Below, piece by piece: positions 4,652 to 25,455 of a stretch of DNA of 35,254 nt. The DNA lies in the NCBI GenBank assembly GCA_005191415.1, contig SUPS01000009.1:1-35254 (forward strand). Direction: 5' to 3'. Position 1 is the stretch's first letter. Each line of letters opens with the position of its first letter. The notes beneath the pieces were generated by a model that ran no database searches, was not told the DNA's origin, and saw only the letters and a program-made list of their open reading frames with translations. Source of the DNA: Candidatus Helarchaeota ASGARD archaeon Hel_GB_A. Its GTDB lineage: Archaea > Asgardarchaeota > Lokiarchaeia > Helarchaeales > HEL-GB-A. A program made the translations under genes and the position numbers.

Positions 4652-5038
4652 TTATATTAGTATAAAAACAAAATCGAGAATAATTGCACCAATAGCGAGG
4701 TAGAAAAAGAAAACCGTGTAGGTATAGAAGCCTCCACTAGTAGAAATTAGAGCACCAACCAAAATTAGAAGGGAACCAATCCCAAAGCCATCGAACCCAG
4801 TAGGATTCAGAAGTAGAATATAAGCACAGATGAGGGAGACAAGACCTGTTCCATGGAAATGATAACGTGATAGAATCATACAAATGATAATGATACAACT
4901 AAGGCTAATACTTATTGCTGCAGCAAATAACGATGTAAAATTAAGAACCAATTGAGTAATAATTAGACTACTCCCAATGATAGCAAAAATCCAGAGATTC
5001 TTAAATATTTTCCCGAATAATTCATCCAGAGTTACCAT
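4652..5038 (-). CDS. Small polytopic membrane protein, unknown function
   Basis: A 128-residue very hydrophobic protein with four to five predicted helices (about 14-31, 33-56, 62-80, 86-104, 108-127) and almost no soluble part. I recognise no family. It starts nine bases after the stop of the GH2 gene, with a GATGAG sequence just before the ATG, so the two are very likely co-transcribed. Because the GH2 enzyme carries its own membrane hairpin, this protein could be its membrane partner; that is inference from proximity only. Alternative: an independent small integral membrane protein. Confidence 0.7.
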   Translation of the reverse strand: MVTLDELFGKIFKNLWIFAIIGSSLIITQLVLNFTSLFAAAISISLSCIIIICMILSRYHFHGTGLVSLICAYILLLNPTGFDGFGIGSLLILVGALISTSGGFYTYTVFFFYLAIGAIILDFVFILI

Positions 5039-5047
5039 CTCATCATC

Positions 5048-7318
5048 TCATTTAATTTTTAAGGTATAGCTATTTGTAATTTGCGTTTCATTAAATTCAA
5101 GAGTCAAAATTAAGGTATAAGACCCTTGAGCATCTGAGGGAAACGTATAGGTGATTTTACCAAGGGTTTGAATGGAATCCTCATCCAATGAACATGTATA
5201 ATCGCCGGAGGCCACGGTGTTTTTCTGGGTATCCTGTATTTGCCATTGAACTTTCGCGTTCGGAATTGGTTCGTGTAAATCATTTACCACGTATATGTTT
5301 GAGGTGAAGGTTTTATTAGGTTTGTAGTGTGTTTTGGGCCAATCTGCCATAACATATACTGGTTCAAAAGATAATTTAGTGCTGTAATAGCCTTTCTTTG
5401 GAGTACGCCAATAATCTACGATAGACCAGGTAATACCAGGAAAACAATCATTAAATTGGAACATTAAAGTTCCACCATTAGGGTTATAACGGTTAATTCG
5501 CCAAAGTTCATTGTAAAATTTAAGTAATTCTGCTTGGTAACTCTGTGTAGCTTCGACCCATTCAGTAATATTTGAATAGTCTTTAAAATTGAACCAGCAG
5601 GCAAAGAACATGGGTTGGCATCGATATCGTTTCTTTAGAAGCCCCCAGTTTAGAGGCCATAAGTTGTCTTCTTTAAGTATTTTCTTTAAATTTTCAACGT
5701 TCGGAAACGCCTGCGCGCCGTATTCAGTTATGAAACAAACCATCCTCTTCAAGGGGAATTTAGTGTAGCAATATGCATCCCGATAGTTCTTTCCTGAATA
5801 CCAGCCTTCATAGGTATGAAGATCAGTCCCTTTCCAAAGTACACCCATTACACCAGAATTCGGAACTACTGGAAGGGAATCATCGATTTCTTGGACAGCT
5901 TTTACTAGCTCCCTATCGAGGACATTTTTATTTTTGTTATAAATAAAGACACTAGTTGGAATTAATCCAAGTAAGAAGGTTAAGATTAGAAATAGACCCC
6001 AAAATGTCGCATTTTTTAATATACCCAAATAGGTATCTACCACCCATGCGACTCCATACGAGATTAATAAAACTATACCTAATAAAATCAGGGATTTAGA
6101 GCTCATACCGGTAAATGGCTCGTTATGGCAGCAATAGACGGCTTGTGATGGGTAATTCTGGATCTTTTTTACCATTTTTTTAATTTGTTCTTTTGCTGGC
6201 TCTTTGATCTTCATGGAATAGCCCCATTGGAGGGCAAAATCTTGCCAAATGAGGATACCTTTCTCGGCACAAACCTCATGCAACTCAATTCGATCAATAT
6301 GTGCATGAACGCGTATCATATTAAAGTTTGCTTCTCGCGCAAGTTCAATATCTTTTTCAATAGTTTCTCGCGTAACATAAGCAATTCGATGATCGCTTGG
6401 GGCATAATTCCCACCCCGCAGATAGATTCGCTTGTTATTCAGATAAAATTCCCATCCTCGATTCTTAATGATTCGTTTGAATTCGCGAATGCCAAAAATG
6501 TGTTCCGTTTCATCGGAAACTTTTTCCCCTTCAAAAACGGCAATTTTAAGAAGATATAGATATGGATATCCATGGTCCCACGTCCACCAGAGATGAGCAT
6601 CCTCAAGAAGAATTTCCTTTTCGAATATTATTTCATTTGTGTCTAATTTTTCATAAAATTCTTCTTGTATTTCAGAACCTTGAAAATTTTTAGGTTGTAT
6701 GATCAATAGAAATTTTTTTTCACCAATTTTTTCTGTAAAGATCTCGACCCGTAAAAAAAGTTTAGCAGTATTTTCATCCAGTATTTTTGTTTTTATTTCG
6801 ACATATTTGAAATAGGTGGATCCAGTTTCAACAAGGGCAACATCATGCCAGATTCCACCTGGGTTAAAGAGCGGGTCGGAGGAATCCCAGTAGGAAAATA
6901 CCCCCGTAATTTGTCTCTTATTAGACATATCTTTTTCGTCATCACAGACTACTTTTACGACAAGAAGATTTTCTTTCTCAAGAAGAGCTGTAACATTAAA
7001 ATCAAAAGTATCGAAATATCCTTCATGATCACCAAGATATTGCTCATTTAACCAAACTTTGCAGTAATAGAAAATGCCTTTGAATTGTAATCGGATAATT
7101 TTAAAAAATTCTTTCATTTCATCAGGAATTTCAAATGTATAGCGGTACCATAAAATTCCTTGGTGATTTGGGAAGCCCTCTTCTTGCCAATGCCCTGGAA
7201 CTTTGATAAAGGTCCAGTCAGAATCATCATAATCTAATTCAAAATAACCTTCAGCTTCTCCTATATTCTCATCGTCGGTAATCGCTTTCCAGGTTCCATT
7301 TAAACTAAAAATTTTCAT
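5048..7318 (-). CDS. GH2-family beta-glycosidase with internal transmembrane hairpin
   Basis: A 756-residue glycoside hydrolase family 2 protein (beta-mannosidase/beta-galactosidase/beta-glucuronidase clan). Domains in order: N-terminal jelly-roll sugar-binding domain (about 1-165), Ig-like domain (165-280), TIM barrel (about 280-600) and a C-terminal beta domain. The acid/base glutamate is in CHNEP (about E400) and the nucleophile in FITEYGAQ (about E532), the latter most like beta-mannosidases. Directly after CHNEP come two hydrophobic helices (about 409-428 and 440-460) with a short linker, after which the barrel resumes. There is no signal peptide. ATG 7318 is preferred to a GTG nine bases upstream because GGATGGA precedes it. 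Substrate is not predictable. Likely bound to the cytoplasmic membrane face and co-transcribed with the 4652 gene. Confidence 0.85.
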   Translation of the reverse strand: MKIFSLNGTWKAITDDENIGEAEGYFELDYDDSDWTFIKVPGHWQEEGFPNHQGILWYRYTFEIPDEMKEFFKIIRLQFKGIFYYCKVWLNEQYLGDHEGYFDTFDFNVTALLEKENLLVVKVVCDDEKDMSNKRQITGVFSYWDSSDPLFNPGGIWHDVALVETGSTYFKYVEIKTKILDENTAKLFLRVEIFTEKIGEKKFLLIIQPKNFQGSEIQEEFYEKLDTNEIIFEKEILLEDAHLWWTWDHGYPYLYLLKIAVFEGEKVSDETEHIFGIREFKRIIKNRGWEFYLNNKRIYLRGGNYAPSDHRIAYVTRETIEKDIELAREANFNMIRVHAHIDRIELHEVCAEKGILIWQDFALQWGYSMKIKEPAKEQIKKMVKKIQNYPSQAVYCCHNEPFTGMSSKSLILLGIVLLISYGVAWVVDTYLGILKNATFWGLFLILTFLLGLIPTSVFIYNKNKNVLDRELVKAVQEIDDSLPVVPNSGVMGVLWKGTDLHTYEGWYSGKNYRDAYCYTKFPLKRMVCFITEYGAQAFPNVENLKKILKEDNLWPLNWGLLKKRYRCQPMFFACWFNFKDYSNITEWVEATQSYQAELLKFYNELWRINRYNPNGGTLMFQFNDCFPGITWSIVDYWRTPKKGYYSTKLSFEPVYVMADWPKTHYKPNKTFTSNIYVVNDLHEPIPNAKVQWQIQDTQKNTVASGDYTCSLDEDSIQTLGKITYTFPSDAQGSYTLILTLEFNETQITNSYTLKIK

Positions 7319-7357
7319 TCCATCCACAAAATTTTGTTAATTAGACATATAAAATAT

Positions 7358-16697: not shown

Positions 16698-17966
16698 GTG
16701 GTAAATCGATTAAAACCTTATGAAATATTATACGAATCCTTAAAATTAACCTTGGACTTAACGGAGAGAATCGTGACTGAAGATGAACAGGTAGCTTTGA
16801 GAAGTTTCATGCGGAATGGGGTTAAAGTTTTAGAGCGAGCACTTCGAGATGCAGATGAAGGCAAACCTATTATTGGATACCATTTTGCAATGCCTGGCGA
16901 AATCGTTCAATGCTTTGATGCAATACCTCTCTGTTTTGAAGCAGTACCCTATTTGATGGCAGCACTCTTCCCTGATGGGGCAGAGTATTATTATGATAAA
17001 ATTCATTCATTCGGCTCGCCTTATCATTCCTGTACATCTCAGAAAGGCATCATGGGAATGTACTTAGATCAAATCGCGGATTTTGACCTCGTAGTCTGCC
17101 CCACCGCTCCCTGTGATAATACGATCGCGAGTTATCAATTCTTTTCTAATCATGCTAAGAAACCCTTACTTGTTGCGGATATGCCTTATTATCGTACAAA
17201 AGAGGCGTATCAATATTTTGCAGATGAAATTGCGCGACAAATTAATGAAATTAGTAAATTAATTAACCAGGAACCAAATTGGGATAAATTCAAGACTGCA
17301 GTCCAAAATAGTAGTAAAGCCCAAGAGTATTTGATTGAAATCAATGAGATGCGGAGAAATATTCCGTGTCCTATCGAAAGCATTGTAAATCCACTAATTA
17401 CGGGAGCAACGGTCATCATGGCGGGGACTCCTGAAAAGACCCAATTCTTTAAAGATGTTCGTGATTTGATGCGAAAACGCATAAAGAATGGTGAGGGGCG
17501 ATTAGGAGAAGAACGATTCCGTTCTATTTGGCCAAATATCTCAATTTTTTTCGATATTGGTCTATATGAATGGCTAGATCGAGTGGTAGGATTAAGTTAT
17601 CTCGTTGATGTATTCACTTACTATTACTATGAACCTATTTATAGTAACAATATTGATGAAATACTTCTTGGAATCGCAAAACAATGTATGAACTACCCTA
17701 TGACACATCAGGCGCAATCCTTCATAGAGATAATGATAGAAGATACGCTGTGGGCGGCAAAAGAATTCAAAGCAGATTGTGCAATAATGACAGGGCATCT
17801 GGGCTGCAAGCAAATCGCCTCTGCAATTCAATTAATTCGGGAAACTTTGCGAGATGAGTTAGATATCCCTATGTTGACTCTTGAAGTAGATATCGGAGAT
17901 AAGCGATTCACGTCAATAGAGACCATAAAGTATGAAATAGAAGAATTTGCCAAGACCTTATTATAA
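16698..17966 (+). CDS. BCR/2-hydroxyacyl-CoA dehydratase family subunit, long type, paralogue 1 (BcrB/HgdB-like)
   Basis: A 422-residue family member, the size of BcrB/BadE. Probable cluster cysteines are C112 (YHSCTSQK), C134 or C139 (VCPTAPCDNT) and C370 (GHLGCKQ). The short subunit and one long subunit would form the usual heterodimer. GTG start, placed immediately after the stop of the short subunit. Its nearest relative is the next gene: the two share long identical blocks (RIVTEDEQ, PDGAEYYYD, GSPYHSCTSQKGIMGM, CPTAPCDNTIASYQFFSN). Here the region 60-75 reads YHFAMPGEIVQCFDAIP; the extra C72 is absent from the paralogue. Substrate not predictable from sequence. Confidence 0.85.
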   Translation: MVNRLKPYEILYESLKLTLDLTERIVTEDEQVALRSFMRNGVKVLERALRDADEGKPIIGYHFAMPGEIVQCFDAIPLCFEAVPYLMAALFPDGAEYYYDKIHSFGSPYHSCTSQKGIMGMYLDQIADFDLVVCPTAPCDNTIASYQFFSNHAKKPLLVADMPYYRTKEAYQYFADEIARQINEISKLINQEPNWDKFKTAVQNSSKAQEYLIEINEMRRNIPCPIESIVNPLITGATVIMAGTPEKTQFFKDVRDLMRKRIKNGEGRLGEERFRSIWPNISIFFDIGLYEWLDRVVGLSYLVDVFTYYYYEPIYSNNIDEILLGIAKQCMNYPMTHQAQSFIEIMIEDTLWAAKEFKADCAIMTGHLGCKQIASAIQLIRETLRDELDIPMLTLEVDIGDKRFTSIETIKYEIEEFAKTLL

Positions 17967-17986
17967 GATGGATTGAGGCAAACTCA

Positions 17987-19261
17987 TTGAGTCAGCGAAT
18001 AAGACCATATCAAATATTATATGATATGTTAAGGCTAACCTTAGAGCTTGTTGAGCGAATTGTAACCGAAGATGAACAGATAGCCTTAAAAAGTTTCTTA
18101 AGAAATGCCCTTAAAGTTTTTAAGCGAACATTGCACTCCGCAGATCAGGGGAAGCCAGTTGTAGGATTTCATTTCGCCTTTCCTGTTGAAATATTATATG
18201 CATTCGATGTCGTTCCTTTTTGTATTGAGGCAATTCCCTATTTAATGGCATCTCTAACCCCAGATGGCGCCGAATATTACTATGATCGAATAGTTGCTTT
18301 CGGATCACCTTATCATTCTTGTACTTCTCAAAAAGGCATTATGGGAATGCTTCTTGAGGGGCTCGTGGATTTCGATCTCATGGTCTGTCCTACCGCCCCC
18401 TGCGATAATACCATTGCTAGTTACCAATTCTTCTCAAATTATATGAAAATTCCCTTACTTATTTCTGACATGCCACATTATAAGACAGAAAGGGGATACC
18501 AATATTACGCTGACCAACTATCTCACCAAATGAATGAAATTGGAGAATACTTGAAGCAGGAACCTGATCTTGAAAGGTTCAAAGCCGCCATTGCCAGAAA
18601 TAATCAAGCACACGAATACTTAATGGAAATTAATGACATGCGACGGCGAATCCCTAGCCCTATCGAGAGTATTGTGGGACCTTTAATCACTGCGACTACG
18701 ATTCTCCTTCCTTGTACAGAAGAAAAAATCCAGATTTTTAAAGATATCCGAGATTTAATGGCGAAACGCATAAAAAAGGGAGAAAGTCGAATCGGATCTG
18801 AACAGTTCCGATCGATATGGCCAAATATTACGTTTTTCTTTGACATAGGATTTTATGAATGGCTTGATCGCGAACTTAAGATGAGCCTTCTGATGGATTG
18901 CACAAACCACTATTATTACAATCCTATTAATTTGAATCAAACCGATTTTGAAGGGATAATCCAAGAACTGGCGCAACAGGTAATGAATTATCCGATGACA
19001 CGACAATCTCAGCATTTCTTAGAAACAATTATTAATGATTCGCTTTGGGCAGCGAAAACATATCAAGCTGATTGTGCTATTTTTACGGCACATTTAGGAT
19101 GCAAGCAAGTTGCCTCCGCCGTCCAACTGGTCCGAGAAGCATTACGCGATGAACTCGGCATTCCCATGCTCACAATTGAATGCGATATCGGCGATAAACG
19201 ATTTGCATCCATCGAGACAATTAAATATGAACTATCAGAATTTGTGAAAACGTTGTTGTAG
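17987..19261 (+). CDS. BCR/2-hydroxyacyl-CoA dehydratase family subunit, long type, paralogue 2
   Basis: A 424-residue tandem paralogue of the preceding gene, clearly over half identical by eye and collinear over the full length. All inferred cluster cysteines are conserved (YHSCTSQK, CPTAPCDNT, AHLGCKQ), so it should be active rather than a decayed copy. TTG start with GAGG eight bases upstream; 20 bases separate it from paralogue 1. Differences are concentrated in the middle and C-terminal thirds, for example TNHYYYNPINLNQTDFEG, which could shape substrate choice. It may pair with the short subunit as an alternative partner, or the three may form one complex. Confidence 0.85.
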   Translation: MSQRIRPYQILYDMLRLTLELVERIVTEDEQIALKSFLRNALKVFKRTLHSADQGKPVVGFHFAFPVEILYAFDVVPFCIEAIPYLMASLTPDGAEYYYDRIVAFGSPYHSCTSQKGIMGMLLEGLVDFDLMVCPTAPCDNTIASYQFFSNYMKIPLLISDMPHYKTERGYQYYADQLSHQMNEIGEYLKQEPDLERFKAAIARNNQAHEYLMEINDMRRRIPSPIESIVGPLITATTILLPCTEEKIQIFKDIRDLMAKRIKKGESRIGSEQFRSIWPNITFFFDIGFYEWLDRELKMSLLMDCTNHYYYNPINLNQTDFEGIIQELAQQVMNYPMTRQSQHFLETIINDSLWAAKTYQADCAIFTAHLGCKQVASAVQLVREALRDELGIPMLTIECDIGDKRFASIETIKYELSEFVKTLL

Positions 19262-19282
19262 ATATTTAAAGATTTATAGGAT

Positions 19283-19663
19283 ATGGAACGTGATATCATA
19301 GATTGTATAAAATACAATTGTGGTAAATGTTGTGAGAGGGAATGGGACGTATATGTTTCAGAAAAGGATATTAAGATGTGGGAAAAGAGCCGCCCAGACA
19401 TATTAAAAGAGGTTGTTACCAAAAAAGTAGGGAATAGAACAAAAAAATTGCTTAAAAAGAAACCTGTAAAATTTCCAGATGGTACAGAACGAAAAATTTG
19501 TATATTTTACGATTTTGAAAAGAAATGCCTGATTCATGAATTTAAACCAGAAGTATGTAAGAAATTTACGTGTTTAAAGCATCCACTTTTTATATTTCAA
19601 TTGTTTAAGCAAATTTCAGAATTAATAGAAGATTTAAATCTAAATACGAAGAAATATATCTAA
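19283..19663 (+). CDS. YkgJ-family cysteine-cluster protein
   Basis: A 126-residue basic protein with the YkgJ/UPF0153 pattern: CIKYNCGKCC near residues 8-17, then C-x(n)-C in the middle (KICIFYDFEKKCLIH) and EVCKKFTC near 95-102. This family is thought to bind zinc or an iron-sulfur cluster; it commonly appears as a small stand-alone protein of unknown role. Here it lies between the catalytic subunits and their ATPase activators, 21 bases after paralogue 2, so it could help cluster assembly or electron delivery in the complex; that is inference. ATG start, with no strong ribosome site. Confidence 0.8.
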   Translation: MERDIIDCIKYNCGKCCEREWDVYVSEKDIKMWEKSRPDILKEVVTKKVGNRTKKLLKKKPVKFPDGTERKICIFYDFEKKCLIHEFKPEVCKKFTCLKHPLFIFQLFKQISELIEDLNLNTKKYI

Positions 19664-19798
19664 AATGAAACTTAAAATAACCATAAAACGTATAGAAGTT
19701 CAGCCCATTCATTTATTTTAGGAATCTCGAAAATTGAATCATTATATGATGCGTTGTTACTACGAAAAATTAAAATTATGACTTTTAATGGTTGGCTT

Positions 19799-20581
19799 AT
19801 GTATTACGGTGGAGTCGACATCGGTAGTGCCTATTGCAAATGTATTATCATAGATGAGGAAGGAATAGTAGCGAAGGCGCTCTATCCGGTGGAAGGAAAT
19901 CCACAGGTTATATCTCAAAAGGTGGTAAAGGATGCGTTAGCACCGCAGAAACTAAAGGTAAAGCATGTGAAAAAGTTTGTAACAACGGGGAGGAATCGAA
20001 AGAAATTTCCTTTAAAGAATGAGGAAATGACAGAAGTAACATGTATTGCAAAGGGAACTTACAATTTATTACCATCTGTAAGAACGATAATAGATATTGG
20101 GGCAATTACAAATAAAGCAATTAAGATTAATGAGAAAGGTAAAGTTATGGAGTATGTTATCAATGATAAATGTGCATCAGGTTCAGGAATGTTCCTCGAA
20201 CTCGTAGCAAAGGCATTGGAAATGGAAGTCCAAGATTTAGGGCGGAATGCAGCACAATCAAGAAATCCACTCTCCATTACAAATCAGTGCACTATATTTG
20301 CAGAAAGTGAAGTTATATATCTGGTTAATGAGGGGAAAAGTGAGGTCGATATTGCAGCTGGAGTCTGTAATTCCATTGCGGGTAATTTATACTCCTTATT
20401 AAAACGCGTTCGAATGGAGAAAGATATAACATTAACGGGGGGTGTCGCAAATAATGGGCAAATCAGGCGGAATCTAGAAGAACGATTAAATTTTGAACTT
20501 AAAACATTCCCGTTCGACCCCTCCTATGTAGCAGCTTATGGGGCGGCGTTATTTGCGAAAGAAATGGAAAAAAAGGTGTAG
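19799..20581 (+). CDS. BcrD-type activator ATPase (BcrA/BadF/BzdG/HgdC family)
   Basis: A 260-residue ASKHA-fold ATPase. It starts GGVDIGSAYCK (phosphate-1 loop) and has NDKCASGSG with C125 and NQCTIFAESEV with C164, the two cysteines that in this family share a [4Fe-4S] cluster across the dimer. CASGSG rather than CAAGTG is what I remember for BcrD/BadG-type subunits. Oddity: the usual DIGGQDxK is DIGAITNK. In-frame ATG 19778 and TTG 19754 lie upstream; 19799 is chosen because the family fold starts there, with low certainty. A 135-base gap holding a TATATGA-like element (19742-19748) precedes it, so a second promoter is possible. It pairs with the next gene. Confidence 0.82.
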   Translation: MYYGGVDIGSAYCKCIIIDEEGIVAKALYPVEGNPQVISQKVVKDALAPQKLKVKHVKKFVTTGRNRKKFPLKNEEMTEVTCIAKGTYNLLPSVRTIIDIGAITNKAIKINEKGKVMEYVINDKCASGSGMFLELVAKALEMEVQDLGRNAAQSRNPLSITNQCTIFAESEVIYLVNEGKSEVDIAAGVCNSIAGNLYSLLKRVRMEKDITLTGGVANNGQIRRNLEERLNFELKTFPFDPSYVAAYGAALFAKEMEKKV

Positions 20582-21394
20582 ATGATGGGATTCTTTTTAG
20601 GAATAGATATCGGATCACTTACCGGGAAAGCCGTGATAATAGATGATGATGCAACGATAAAAGCCCAACAAATCATCTACGTGAAAAAACTTCCCATACA
20701 TACAGTGAATGCGTTAATGGAGGATGTTTTACCAAAAGTAGGGATTGAGGATATTTCAGAAGTAACATATTGTGTTGGAACTGGTTACGGTAGGCGGAAA
20801 ATACCTCTAGCAAACGAAACAATTAGTGAAATTACCTGCCATGGCACAGGAGCCCATCATGTATTGCCCTCTGTAAGAACTGTAATTGATATAGGGGGGC
20901 AGGATTGCAAAGTTATTAGGTTAGATGCAAAAGGGAATCTCAAAAATTTTATTATGAATGAGAAATGTGCCGCTGGCACAGGAAGATATCTGGAAATTAT
21001 GGCAAAGACATTAAATTTAACACTTGATGAACTGGGCACACTTTCGCTCAAAGCCAAAGCCCCTTTATCCTTAGCTAGTAAATGTAGCATTTATGCACGA
21101 CTTGAAGTGATGCAGCTCATCAGCGATGGACTTAAGAAACCAGAGATCGCCGCAGCAATTAATCGAGCTATGGCGGAACGTGTAATTAATCTTGCAGAAA
21201 AAGTGGGCATAGAGGAGGATGTCGCAGTCTCTGGGGGTGTAGCTAAAAATATTGGTGTAGTCACTAATATGGAACGAATAATCGGGATAAAATTCAAGAA
21301 ATTTCCCATCGATCCTCAAATTATTGGTGCTCTTGGTGCAGCACTCATTGCTAAAAGAGCCTATCAGAAATTATATAAAGAAGAAAAAAATTAA
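20582..21394 (+). CDS. BcrA-type activator ATPase (BcrA/BadF/BzdG/HgdC family)
   Basis: A 270-residue ASKHA ATPase that hydrolyses ATP to lower the potential of its [4Fe-4S] cluster and inject electrons into the catalytic subunits. Motifs: GIDIGSLTGKAV (7-18), VGTGYGRRKI, IDIGGQDCK (102-110), NEKCAAGTGRYLE (C129), SKCSIYARLEV (C168) and AVSGGVAKN. It starts directly after the previous stop with AGGTG upstream, so the two ATPases are produced together, as expected for a heterodimer like BcrA/BcrD. Note GGQDCK where most homologues have GGQDSK. The set ends here; a toxin-antitoxin pair follows. Confidence 0.85.
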   Translation: MMGFFLGIDIGSLTGKAVIIDDDATIKAQQIIYVKKLPIHTVNALMEDVLPKVGIEDISEVTYCVGTGYGRRKIPLANETISEITCHGTGAHHVLPSVRTVIDIGGQDCKVIRLDAKGNLKNFIMNEKCAAGTGRYLEIMAKTLNLTLDELGTLSLKAKAPLSLASKCSIYARLEVMQLISDGLKKPEIAAAINRAMAERVINLAEKVGIEEDVAVSGGVAKNIGVVTNMERIIGIKFKKFPIDPQIIGALGAALIAKRAYQKLYKEEKN

Positions 21395-21427
21395 TGTTAC
21401 CAGAACTATTACCAATTGGTGATTATA

Positions 21428-21703
21428 TTGGCAAAAGTTAAAATTGATAACTTTGGTAGAATTCTAATTCCAAAAGAAATAAGAAATGATCTTGGAATTA
21501 AAGAAGGCGTGGAGTTAGAAATAAAAGTAAAAGATGGGAAAATTTTAATAGTGCTTAAAAATTCTAATCTTGAGAAAAAAGTCAATGAATTAATTAATTA
21601 TCTTAAAAATAATGCTCCAAAACCTTTTGTTATTGCAGAGGAGGCAGGGCAAAAATGGTATTCAGCAGAGTACAGTCTAAAAAAGATAGGATTGAAGGAA
21701 TAA
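21428..21703 (+). CDS. AbrB/SpoVT-type antitoxin (VapB/MazE-like)
   Basis: A 91-residue protein opening with the swapped-hairpin AbrB DNA-binding fold: KVKIDNFGRILIPKEIRNDL, then GIKEGVELEIKVKDGKILI. The TTG at 21428 with GGTGA six bases before it is preferred over a TTG 12 bases earlier. The C-terminal half (45-91) is helical and would mask the toxin. It overlaps the PIN-domain gene by 49 bases in another frame. It should repress its own operon and neutralise the partner nuclease. Confidence 0.85.
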   Translation: MAKVKIDNFGRILIPKEIRNDLGIKEGVELEIKVKDGKILIVLKNSNLEKKVNELINYLKNNAPKPFVIAEEAGQKWYSAEYSLKKIGLKE

Positions 21704-22164
21704 TTGATGTTGGTTTGATAGTAATATCTCATTTTGAGAATCCAGCAAATGATTTTACGCTTGAATTTTTAAAGGATGTTTTGCTCTGGAAGAAAAAATG
21801 TTTAATTCCAGTTACTACGTTTCTTGGAGCATATCACATTCTTACCAAATATTTGGGAGTTGAAAAAGTTTCGGCTTATGAAGCTTTAAAAAAAACTCTT
21901 AATACAAAATCTCCAGCATTCTATACGGATATATCTATCGAAATGGTTGTAAATTCCTTAACAAATGCAATGGGTTATCGTATAGAATCGTGGGATGGCT
22001 ATATCATTACTATTGCCAAAATGTTTTCAGCACCTATAATTTATACGACCGATGGACAATTGGAAAAAAAGGTAAAAGATTTACACGTTTTAAATCCCAT
22101 TCCCGAAAAGATTTTCAGACAATATAATGATTGGTTGAAAGAACATTGGTTTAAAAAGAAATAA
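21655..22164 (+). CDS. vapC: PIN-domain ribonuclease toxin (VapC-like)
   Basis: A 169-residue PIN-domain protein. Acidic active-site residues are visible: D18 in IIDVGLIV, the WDGYIITIAK aspartate near 115, and YTTDGQLEK near 132. Known function: Mg-dependent ribonuclease, often cutting tRNA or rRNA, held inactive by the antitoxin made just before it. The ATG at 21655 has GGAGG and AGGG upstream and overlaps the antitoxin gene by 49 bases; a shorter form starting later cannot be excluded. About ten residues before the first strand are unusual, since PIN proteins mostly start within a few residues of the catalytic aspartate. Confidence 0.82.
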   Translation: MVFSRVQSKKDRIEGIIDVGLIVISHFENPANDFTLEFLKDVLLWKKKCLIPVTTFLGAYHILTKYLGVEKVSAYEALKKTLNTKSPAFYTDISIEMVVNSLTNAMGYRIESWDGYIITIAKMFSAPIIYTTDGQLEKKVKDLHVLNPIPEKIFRQYNDWLKEHWFKKK

Positions 22165-22181
22165 TTTCCCGAAGCTTTCAT

Positions 22182-22856
22182 ATGTATTGGTCTTTGCAAA
22201 ATGTATTATCAGCTACAATTTTTGGATGTGGATTGTGCATCGCCCTAATTTTTTCAAATAGCTATTTGGTGTTATTAGGTTATATGTTCGTTGGTGGAGG
22301 CGGTATCCTCTTTCTTATGAATTTTGAGCGCCGGTGGGTCAAACGAAATTATTTAAAGAAAGGATTGTTGGCGACCATTGTATTAGCGATCGTTTATGGC
22401 ATTTTAGAATACATATTTTTTGATTCAACATGGAACAATTGGTTTAAAATTTCTGATTGGTTTCCTAATAAATATTATTATTGGGGATTCATGACAATCC
22501 TGAATTTTACACTAGTTTTTTTAATTTCCCACAAGTCTATCGGACTTTCATTGGCATCAATTCCATTATTTGCTGTTAATGAGGATCTCTGGTACTGGAT
22601 CACCAAAAGCATCCATGAGCTACGCTGGGTTTTTCCTGTCGGAAATTGGTTTGATCAACGTTTCCCCTTTCTTCAAGGCTTAGGGGATCCAATCTATTCA
22701 TTTCCCTATTGGCCCCGATTTTATTTTGTAGGATGGATCTTGGTTTCCATTCTCCTAATAATCCAATTTAAGAATTTACAAGGGGGCAATTTTTTGATAG
22801 GAGTTGGCGGCTTCGTGTATGCTTCCTGTCTGTGTTTGCTTTTAATTCCAGTTTAA
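22182..22856 (+). CDS. Polytopic membrane protein, unknown
   Basis: A 224-residue protein with about six or seven hydrophobic helices (near 8-27, 28-48, 61-80, 100-118, 120-136, 185-203 and 206-222). Between helices 5 and 6 lies an aromatic-rich segment (NEDLWYWITKSIHELRW to DPIYSFPYWPRFY) with several acidic and aromatic residues that could form a pocket. I recognise no family. It starts 17 bases after the PIN gene and ends 21 bases before the M28 peptidase, so it may be co-transcribed with the latter. Function unknown. Confidence 0.72.
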   Translation: MYWSLQNVLSATIFGCGLCIALIFSNSYLVLLGYMFVGGGGILFLMNFERRWVKRNYLKKGLLATIVLAIVYGILEYIFFDSTWNNWFKISDWFPNKYYYWGFMTILNFTLVFLISHKSIGLSLASIPLFAVNEDLWYWITKSIHELRWVFPVGNWFDQRFPFLQGLGDPIYSFPYWPRFYFVGWILVSILLIIQFKNLQGGNFLIGVGGFVYASCLCLLLIPV

Positions 22857-22877
22857 GGGAAAGAATTATGTAGTAAA

Positions 22878-24470
22878 ATGATAAAAGGCAAAAAAGAAGT
22901 CTATCGAGATAGGTGGAGAAGTTTGTCGGAGAAAGATTACGTCATTGATTCAGATGAGAATTCGGATTACATGTATGATATCATTGCTAGAGTTATAAAT
23001 GAAGCAGGTCCGCGACTTCCTTGTAGTGAAAATGAGAAGAAAGCAGCAGAATTATTGAGTAAAGAGTTAGAAAATTACTGTGATTCTGTCGAAATTGAGA
23101 AATTTATGCATTATCCAGAATTAGGCGTATCGAGATGGCCACCTCGCTGCGCGATTATCGTTTTGATTTCTGTTGCGGTTTTTCTACTTTATCCATTTCT
23201 ACCGATTGTTTTTTCAGCACTTGCGGCGGGCATTAGTTTATTTGGGTTATTAAATATCTATTTCCAGTACTTAAAAGCGGAGGAATGGTCTCCAAAAATC
23301 TACCCTTATAAACCAAAGGAATCACGGAACGTTGTGGGAGTTATCAAGCCATCTGGCGAAATAAAAAAGCGTGTAGTTTTTAGTGGGCATATAGATAGTG
23401 CACATAGATTCAATCTTATGCAATATACCCATGAAGGTTATATCTATTTCGTTATTGGTGGCTTAATATGTTTATTTAACTTTCCTATTTTGCAGATACG
23501 ACAATTAGTTGTAATTCTTGCAGGTGTAAATGAAGCACCTTTGGCAACTATTTTTAATTGGCTGGCGATTTTGATTCCAATTTGTCTTGGAATCGGATAT
23601 ATTATCTTAGATATAATTTCTGCCAAAATTCTGAATGAAACAAGACGAGAGAAAATTTTTTGGGGGGCGATAAGTTCTCTGACAGGAAAAACAGTACTTT
23701 TAATTTTAGGCATCGTGGTCTATCAAATTCTAGTGAGTTTCTCATTGTTTGAGTATATAATGACAAATCCTTCTGGATTCAAAACTGCAATCTTAGTATT
23801 GCTCAATTATCTACCATTTATAATAGCTTTTATTCTCTTTATAAGTAAAGAAGGAGTTCCTGGGGCGTTAGATAACTTATCGGCGGTTGCTATTGCGATG
23901 TGTGTCGCGAAAATCTTGAAGGACTGGAAAACAGCATACCCAAATCGATTTCCCAAAAATACAGAAGTCGTTATTGCATTGTTTGGTAGCGAGGAAAGTG
24001 GATGTAACGGATCAAAGGCATTCGCTAAAAGGCATGCAGCAGAATATAATCAAATAGATACAACTTGCGTGAATATGGATACAATCGCAGATCCAGAAAT
24101 TATTTGGATATTTAAACGAGAAAGCTCTGTTCGGATTGATTTTGACCCAGAAACCGTGAAACTCCTAGCAGAAAGTGCAGAAGAATTGAACCTTAACTAC
24201 AAAGTGGGAAATCAACCCTGGGTTTCAGGAGGGAGCGATGCGTCAGGACTTACAAAATATGGATTACGGGCGGCTTCCCTTATAGGTTTAAAATTTGCCC
24301 ATTACCTGTATTATTACCACACGGATAGAGATGATATATCGATTATAAATAAGGAGCGCCGTCCTTGCACCGACTATGGTACAGAATGGTATAATCGCAA
24401 CATGCGATGCGCCTTTGAGAATGCCTTAAAGATTTGTCTAAAATATCTTGAAAAAAAAGATAAAGAATAA
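22878..24470 (+). CDS. M28-family metallopeptidase with membrane helices inserted in the catalytic domain
   Basis: A 530-residue M28 (aminopeptidase Y/S-like) zinc peptidase. Catalytic elements are seen in order: H171 and D173 (SGHIDSAH), D332 (GALDN), E372-E373 (SEES), D401 (NMDTIAD), H481 (YYHTDRDD). All usual zinc ligands are present. Two helices (about 91-131) precede the catalytic core, and about four more (near 188-204, 224-248, 265-290, 302-322) lie between H171/D173 and D332, where ordinary M28 enzymes have only 10-15 residues. The total is even, so both halves of the active site can meet on one side of the membrane, probably cytoplasmic as no signal peptide exists. Substrate unknown; peptide or lipid-linked amide cleavage is possible. 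Confidence 0.85.
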   Translation: MIKGKKEVYRDRWRSLSEKDYVIDSDENSDYMYDIIARVINEAGPRLPCSENEKKAAELLSKELENYCDSVEIEKFMHYPELGVSRWPPRCAIIVLISVAVFLLYPFLPIVFSALAAGISLFGLLNIYFQYLKAEEWSPKIYPYKPKESRNVVGVIKPSGEIKKRVVFSGHIDSAHRFNLMQYTHEGYIYFVIGGLICLFNFPILQIRQLVVILAGVNEAPLATIFNWLAILIPICLGIGYIILDIISAKILNETRREKIFWGAISSLTGKTVLLILGIVVYQILVSFSLFEYIMTNPSGFKTAILVLLNYLPFIIAFILFISKEGVPGALDNLSAVAIAMCVAKILKDWKTAYPNRFPKNTEVVIALFGSEESGCNGSKAFAKRHAAEYNQIDTTCVNMDTIADPEIIWIFKRESSVRIDFDPETVKLLAESAEELNLNYKVGNQPWVSGGSDASGLTKYGLRAASLIGLKFAHYLYYYHTDRDDISIINKERRPCTDYGTEWYNRNMRCAFENALKICLKYLEKKDKE

Positions 24471-24657
24471 ACGGTTAAAGAAAGAATTCAATCTTTTGTT
24501 GTCGAAATAAATTTAATATCATCAGATACGATCATAAAATGGAAGGTCCAGTCTCAAGTGACTACTTTTTTATTTTTGGGGAGGATCTAGAGGAAAATTT
24601 AAAGATGGAAAATTTATACCAAATTCAGTATTAAAGATCGATCTAAAAGGTGTTCAG
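24471..24657 (+). pseudogene. Possible decayed coding remnant
   Basis: Directly after the M28 stop, the same frame reads on for about 35 codons (SFVVEINLISSDTIIKWKVQ), and after a T-rich run near 24567-24579 a different frame continues with protein-like text (GGSRGKFKDGKFIPNSVLKI) up to the ribosome site of the next gene. This suggests one degraded gene with a frameshift in the T-run. No start codon and no recognised family. It may be chance; confidence is low. Confidence 0.25.
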
Positions 24658-25455
24658 ATGCTCACAGCGGGTATAGATATTGGATCACTTACGACAAAAG
24701 CCCTCATTATAGATGAGGATAAAATAAAGGGTTATGTAATATTGAAATCGGGGCATTTATTTGAGGAGGCGGGGAACGAGGCATATAAGCTCTGTTTAGA
24801 GAAATGTAATTTAACTAACGACGATATTAAATATATTGTAGGAACAGGATACGGACGGGCGCTTATCTCATTTGCGAATGAAAATATCACAGAAATTACC
24901 TGTCATGCGCGTGGAGTATATTATTATTTTCCAGATGCGCATACGGTCATTGATATTGGAGGACAGGATAGCAAAGCGATCAGAATTGGCGAAAATGGAA
25001 AAGTGCTTGATTTTGTTATGAATGATAAATGTGCAGCGGGTACGGGCCGATTTTTAGAGGTCATGCAGAAAGCCTTGAACATTGAGACCTTAGATATGAT
25101 GGGAAAATTGTCTTTAAATTCAAGAAATCCTGCCAAAATCTCGAGTATGTGTACCGTTTTTGCAGAGAGTGAGGTTATTTCGCTATTTGCCCAGAAAAAG
25201 GCGAAGAAAGAAGATATTGTCGCAGGACTTCACACAGCCATCGCGAAACGAATCACAGGCATGGTTAATCGATTGGGACGAGTGCAAGAAAAAATTATAT
25301 TCTGCGGTGGCGTGGCAAAAAATGTAGGCGTAAAGAAAGCTCTTGAACAAGAATTAGGTAAACCCTTATATACACCAGAAGATCCACAGATTACAGGGGC
25401 ATTAGGGGCAGCGTTACTAGCGCAAGAACGATACCAGAAAAAGAAAAAAATATAG
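24658..25455 (+). CDS. Acyl-CoA dehydratase/reductase activase (HgdC-like), canonical
   Basis: A 265-residue ASKHA ATPase with every family motif intact: GIDIGSLTTKAL (5-16), VGTGYGRALI, ITEITCHARG, DIGGQDSKAI (99-108), NDKCAAGTGRFLE (C125), SSMCTVFAESEV (C165), FCGGVAKNVG and ALGAALLAQ. It resembles the homodimeric activator of 2-hydroxyglutaryl-CoA dehydratase more than the two divergent ATPases at 19.8-21.4 kb. AAGGTG lies six bases before the ATG. It stands alone, 3.3 kb downstream of the main cluster, and could serve those subunits or a dehydratase elsewhere in the genome. A T-tract follows the gene at 25462-25468. Confidence 0.88.
   Translation: MLTAGIDIGSLTTKALIIDEDKIKGYVILKSGHLFEEAGNEAYKLCLEKCNLTNDDIKYIVGTGYGRALISFANENITEITCHARGVYYYFPDAHTVIDIGGQDSKAIRIGENGKVLDFVMNDKCAAGTGRFLEVMQKALNIETLDMMGKLSLNSRNPAKISSMCTVFAESEVISLFAQKKAKKEDIVAGLHTAIAKRITGMVNRLGRVQEKIIFCGGVAKNVGVKKALEQELGKPLYTPEDPQITGALGAALLAQERYQKKKKI

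Follow-up and report, generated by a model that had tools for sequence, protein, structure and literature searches.

A family 2 glycoside hydrolase with a predicted membrane hairpin beside its acid/base glutamate in a Helarchaeota archaeon

Glycoside hydrolase family 2 (GH2) is among the best-studied families of sugar-cleaving enzymes, and the members that we compared, or that our literature search turned up, are either soluble or seem to be anchored by one end. The closest matches in sequence and fold to the protein described here are the beta-mannosidases 6byc (Xanthomonas), 2vjx/2je8 (B. thetaiotaomicron) and 5n6u (Dictyoglomus), which share its domain architecture and catalytic glutamates and have no membrane hairpin. 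Monotopic enzymes with a membrane-inserted cap, fatty acid amide hydrolase among them, have hydrophobic helices at the entrance of the active site that give access to lipid substrates; fatty acid amide hydrolase has another fold and another chemistry than our protein, and the likeness is one of layout only. We know of no internal hairpin in GBA2, the non-lysosomal glucosylceramidase, which belongs to the unrelated family GH116. GBA2 acts on its glycolipid at the cytosolic membrane face (PMC5712312), and a passage of the same source, citing Korschen 2013, reports it as membrane-associated yet non-integral. The fatty acid amide hydrolase domain is listed among the integral monotopic ones (PMC1934363).

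The GH2 gene that we analyzed lies in a window of 35,254 nucleotides from Candidatus Helarchaeota archaeon Hel_GB_A (contig SUPS01000009.1, positions 1 to 35,254; Table 1). It reads from an ATG at 7316-7318 to a stop codon at 5048-5050, with a GTG at 7325-7327 as a possible alternative start, and many stops interrupt the opposite strand across 5048-7318. In the orthologue from genome G001 (L060, about 7000-7030), no ATG, GTG or TTG is found near the expected start, and the frame opens just after a stop. The 756-residue product is a member of GH2: matches to PF02837, PF00703 and PF02836 all score above cut-off, and fold matches span the whole length of the protein. The PF02836 barrel match ends at residue 410, and the sequence alignment to the GH2 beta-mannosidase structures likewise has a gap from about residue 401 to about 499. 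Compared by fold, the model of the protein matches beta-mannosidases with Z of about 38 (at best 662 residues aligned, rmsd 2.9).

Table 1. Features of the hairpin-bearing GH2 gene and its downstream neighbour in the window. Residues are those of the GH2 protein; KD, Kyte-Doolittle mean; AF2, AlphaFold2.
Feature	Position	Strand	Basis or remark
GH2 exo-beta-glycosidase with internal membrane hairpin (predicted), 756 aa	5048..7318	-	no long frame on plus strand
GH2 N-terminal sugar-binding domain, residues 5-164	6827..7306	-	Pfam PF02837, E=2.9e-15
GH2 immunoglobulin-like sandwich, residues 168-278	6485..6817	-	Pfam PF00703
TIM barrel, about residues 289-655, split by hairpin	5354..6454	-	PF02836, AF2 secondary structure and PDB alignment
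HNEP motif with acid/base Glu400	6116..6127	-	E400 invariant in 21/21 aligned proteins
Inserted beta4-alpha4 loop, residues 402-461	5936..6115	-	66 residues from E400 to L467; 8-21 in insert-free relatives
Hydrophobic helix 1, residues 409-428, predicted membrane-spanning	6035..6094	-	KD 2.45; AF2 helix 407-431
Hydrophobic helix 2, residues 441-460, predicted membrane-spanning	5939..5998	-	KD 2.33; AF2 helix 437-449 and 455-458, low pLDDT
Barrel helix alpha4, residues 462-478, resuming past hairpin	5885..5935	-	AF2 pLDDT about 94
Expanded loop 488-503, between beta5 and beta6	5810..5857	-	12-33 residues in hairpin clade; 8-10 in relatives
Expanded basic/aromatic loop 505-531, before nucleophile	5726..5806	-	28-35 residues in clade; 21-22 in relatives
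Nucleophile Glu532 in FITEYGAQ	5723..5725	-	Glu in all aligned proteins reaching that column
C-terminal beta-sandwich, about residues 662-756	5051..5335	-	Mannosidase_ig just below cut-off; AF2
Small membrane protein (predicted), 128 aa, probably incidental	4652..5038	-	four hydrophobic segments

Retaining beta-glycosidase activity is predicted for the protein from its family membership, with the acid/base glutamate following an asparagine at beta4 (E400, within CCHNEP) and the nucleophile glutamate at beta7 (E532). Its specificity is less readily assigned. Where the Dictyoglomus enzyme 5n6u has WDWGPR and RVWGG, our protein has WDSSDP and RVHAH; it thus lacks the WDWG and RVWGG-type motifs, which we take to mark characterised beta-mannosidases. 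A paralogue without the hairpin, encoded in the same genome (L003), keeps them, as YGWDWAPKL and RVWGGG. Because these positions are altered, the match to the beta-mannosidase fold does not establish specificity for beta-mannosides. Nor does the protein belong with the named GH2 enzymes of NCBIfam (beta-galactosidases, beta-glucuronidases), against which it scores at best 101.5 bits (equivalog cut-off 999). In each of three Lachnospiraceae loci (L056, L057 and L059), two GH2 genes related to ours lie side by side, and at least one of the two reads YKEP rather than NEP at the acid/base position, so that the usual asparagine before the glutamate is replaced.

The original prediction held that two hydrophobic helices follow the CHNEP motif within about ten residues, at a place where the loop of other GH2 enzymes is short, and both statements agree with what we found, the latter for all relatives compared. 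The first segment (SLILLGIVLLISYGVAWVVD) starts nine residues past E400 and is followed by the second (GLFLILTFLLGLIPTSVFIY). Hydrophobicity was scored with simple scales; as Kyte-Doolittle means over a 19-residue window, the two peaks contrast with a maximum of 1.09 elsewhere in the protein, and both segments are long enough to span a bilayer, a property kept across the relatives that carry the insert. When the sequence was shuffled 5000 times, a single peak this high arose in 49 trials and a close pair in none, which, together with the conservation described below, rules out chance hydrophobicity. An assembly or frameshift artefact is ruled out as well, since nine genomes have the same arrangement.

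A profile search of 227 genomes of the phylum, with a query alignment of six members, recovered the insert-bearing GH2 gene from these nine (G000, G001, G002, G012, G013, G031, G162, G170 and G171). The gene of G170 is truncated at a contig end, and loop lengths were taken from the complete members, in which 66-164 residues separate E400 from the position of L467 (8-21 in twelve relatives, where the loop is not hydrophobic). Hydrophobic peaks occur in the insert of all nine proteins, the window protein and its eight clade relatives; outside the clade, none of the 79 GH2-related frames compared has a hydrophobic segment at this position. Several class members whose first-pass matches reached the hairpin columns, L104-L108, L110 and L111 among them, were rejected for having no hydrophobic segment there. 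A single scan of genome contigs matched only Lachnospiraceae relatives, which have no insert. The nearest short-loop proteins in Asgard genomes (L065 from G080 and L098-L100 from G158-G160) are about 37% identical to the window protein and share its CCHNEP motif, with EFGAQ at the nucleophile; they differ in an 8-residue loop free of any hydrophobic insert, and further loops of their catalytic face are shorter and less basic.

In a tree restricted to alignment columns with residues in half or more of the sequences, a filter that dropped nearly all insert columns, the nine carriers form one clade (SH-aLRT 99), and the insert requires a single change of state. Within this clade, the window protein pairs with that of G001, from the same order (support 98), and three proteins, from genomes outside the class, branch apart from the rest. 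The insert is 24.6% identical among members, compared with 40-44% for the core; hydrophobicity has been kept where sequence has not, which is the pattern expected of membrane anchors. In the proteins of G002, G162 and G171, the insert contains three or four hydrophobic segments, for which a membrane domain is a better fit than a packed surface patch. Among the five members with two helices, four have at most one Lys/Arg in the turn; the fifth, P0002, has three, its turn is its most basic part, and its first helix is weakly hydrophobic (Kyte-Doolittle 1.53). The charge pattern flanking the two helices is thus only mildly informative about topology.

An AlphaFold2 model built from 21 sequences (mean pLDDT 84.9, pTM 0.87) orders the region as strand 392-399 (beta4), the two hydrophobic helices and helix 462-478. 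As the last of these corresponds to alpha4, no element of the barrel is missing, and the hydrophobic helices come in addition to it. The barrel had been predicted to resume after the hairpin and to reach the nucleophile in FITEYGAQ, and it does so in the model; the idea that the two segments are buried barrel helices was rejected, both being placed outside an intact barrel. Confidence in the hairpin itself is about 48-74, in a model made by a method that does not represent membranes. The protein of G171, with its longer insert, was modelled with the same barrel elements and again with low confidence in the insert.

In enzymes of clan GH-A, the beta-to-alpha loops ring the active site on the catalytic face of the TIM barrel. 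An insert in such a loop, right behind an acid/base glutamate at the end of beta4, would bind this side of the barrel to the membrane. On the same face, two more loops are enlarged in the clade (Table 1), and the one before the nucleophile carries five to eight Lys/Arg, one to three acidic residues and seven to nine aromatics, compared with one to four Lys/Arg in the relatives. Together, these loops fit a surface that would rest on the headgroups of the inner leaflet.

The reading that we prefer, with a probability of about 0.5, is that of an integral-membrane retaining GH2 exo-beta-glycosidase whose catalytic face lies on the inner leaflet and whose substrates are most likely amphiphilic. The enzyme would be made in the cytosol and stay on that side, with a hairpin of two transmembrane helices in the beta4-alpha4 loop anchoring it in the cytoplasmic membrane. 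The two other enlarged loops of the same face, one of them rich in Lys/Arg and aromatic residues, would probably lie on lipid headgroups, and the enzyme would remove terminal beta-linked sugars from inner-leaflet substrates, most likely glycolipids or polyprenyl-linked glycans. The anatomy is firm, as the GH2 architecture, the two catalytic residues, the conserved hydrophobic insert, the intact barrel and the single clade are all seen in sequence or model. We infer membrane insertion, cytosolic placement and orientation, and consider insertion with the catalytic face inward to be probable; the non-integral GBA2, membrane-associated all the same, cautions against equating hydrophobicity with insertion. 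The naming of a glycolipid or lipid-linked glycan is speculative. A wider claim, that there is an Asgard-specific class of integral-membrane GH2 enzymes, with the membrane domain in the catalytic face of the barrel, that trims beta-linked sugars off archaeal glycolipids or polyprenyl-linked glycans at the cytosolic leaflet, is one that we put forward tentatively and regard as doubtful as a whole.

Gene neighbourhoods bear mainly on the substrate. At L064, the hairpin GH2 gene lies amid two MFS/sugar transporters, GH4 genes and a glucosamine-6-phosphate isomerase-type gene; at L096, an MFS transporter is found two genes downstream; and a GH38 alpha-mannosidase gene and a phosphomannomutase-type gene are near those of L062 and L095, respectively. 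Such neighbours suggest cytosolic breakdown of beta-glycosides, as sugar catabolism rather than lipid metabolism. They also lend themselves to an alternative, in which the enzyme is anchored in the same way and cleaves soluble beta-linked oligosaccharides as they leave a sugar transporter, and GH2 tethering at the membrane seems to recur in this class in a second clade, described below. We rate this alternative as unlikely, although it is the best placed of those considered: a sugar-type MFS transporter is close by at only two of the nine loci, and tethering to a transporter does not require a hairpin on the catalytic face. The neighbours in the window are a lactate/malate dehydrogenase, a flavin reductase and PEP-synthase-like pieces, unrelated to sugars except for a melibiase-like gene about 20 kb away, and no conserved gene order was found across the hairpin loci. 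The model and the conservation of the insert give good, if inferential, support to the original proposal of a hairpin that keeps the active site at the inner membrane face, and the basic and aromatic loops of the same face add to it; the lipid-linked substrate of that proposal does not draw support from the neighbourhoods, which point to ordinary sugar breakdown, and is a reasonable but unproven guess.

The hairpin could also be a plain anchor or a relic of the lineage that fixes the enzyme to the membrane and leaves its choice of substrate unaffected. The low identity of the insert, its variable length and its varying number of hydrophobic segments are compatible with this; we think it improbable, given that the position beside the acid/base residue is fixed in 9/9 members and that two more loops on the same face are enlarged in the same clade. 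Placement of the helices outside the membrane, where they would form an oligomer interface or cover the active site as a lid, is very improbable. AlphaFold2 cannot tell such roles from membrane helices, and the second helix contains one proline and a few polar residues; against this, most members have nearly uncharged 20-residue segments with Kyte-Doolittle values above 2, some have three or four hydrophobic segments, and the helical hydrophobic moments are modest (0.85 and 0.6). Many glycosidases are extracellular, yet the notion of an enzyme exported in both halves and anchored by its hairpin from the outer face has almost nothing to commend it, with no hydrophobic N-terminus or signal peptide in the window protein (as originally stated) or in any clade member, and roughly 400 residues standing before the first hydrophobic segment.

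The small membrane protein said to follow the GH2 gene is a real open reading frame, beginning exactly nine bases downstream. A conserved partnership was rejected, because the 226 other genomes of the phylum hold no relative of the 128-residue protein, which is probably incidental for the same reason.

Several further observations were made at these loci. A GH4 gene in the sugar-utilisation cluster of L064 (8232-9735) is seemingly split into two frames, perhaps as a pseudogene or through a sequence error. In L061 (6178-7809), a radical SAM protein with an HMPTM-type zinc ribbon, presumably similar to archaeal tetraether lipid synthases, is encoded facing the hairpin GH2 gene of G002, the two genes adjoining at their ends; this is a single instance. 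On the plus strand of the window, at 16698-25455, translations read as two tandem 2-hydroxyacyl-CoA dehydratase/benzoyl-CoA reductase subunit-like proteins and three BadF-type activator-like proteins. Loci related to the hairpin GH2 locus encode many small GTPases, and the window genome yielded two ESCRT-III (Snf7) matches above cut-off, compared with none in 14 control genomes, both in keeping with an Asgard archaeon.

A second GH2 clade of the class (L034-L041, L043-L047 and L020) comprises beta-glucuronidase-like proteins of about 600-650 residues with one C-terminal hydrophobic segment, flanked by Lys/Arg and resembling a tail anchor, and with no obvious signal peptide. From its sequence, this segment apparently represents an independent tethering of GH2 enzymes to the membrane. 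For a GH2 enzyme with an internal membrane hairpin, we found no precedent in the titles and abstracts of the open-access literature that was searched. The layout appears to be new within a known family, for which such absence from the literature is weak evidence.

Asgard archaea are the closest archaea to eukaryotes, and their membrane chemistry is poorly known. If the preferred reading is correct, the placing of a membrane domain at the catalytic face would illustrate a route by which a TIM-barrel glycosidase becomes an enzyme of the membrane surface, and the hairpin GH2 proteins would offer a direct handle on the turnover of glycolipids or lipid-linked glycans in Asgard archaea.
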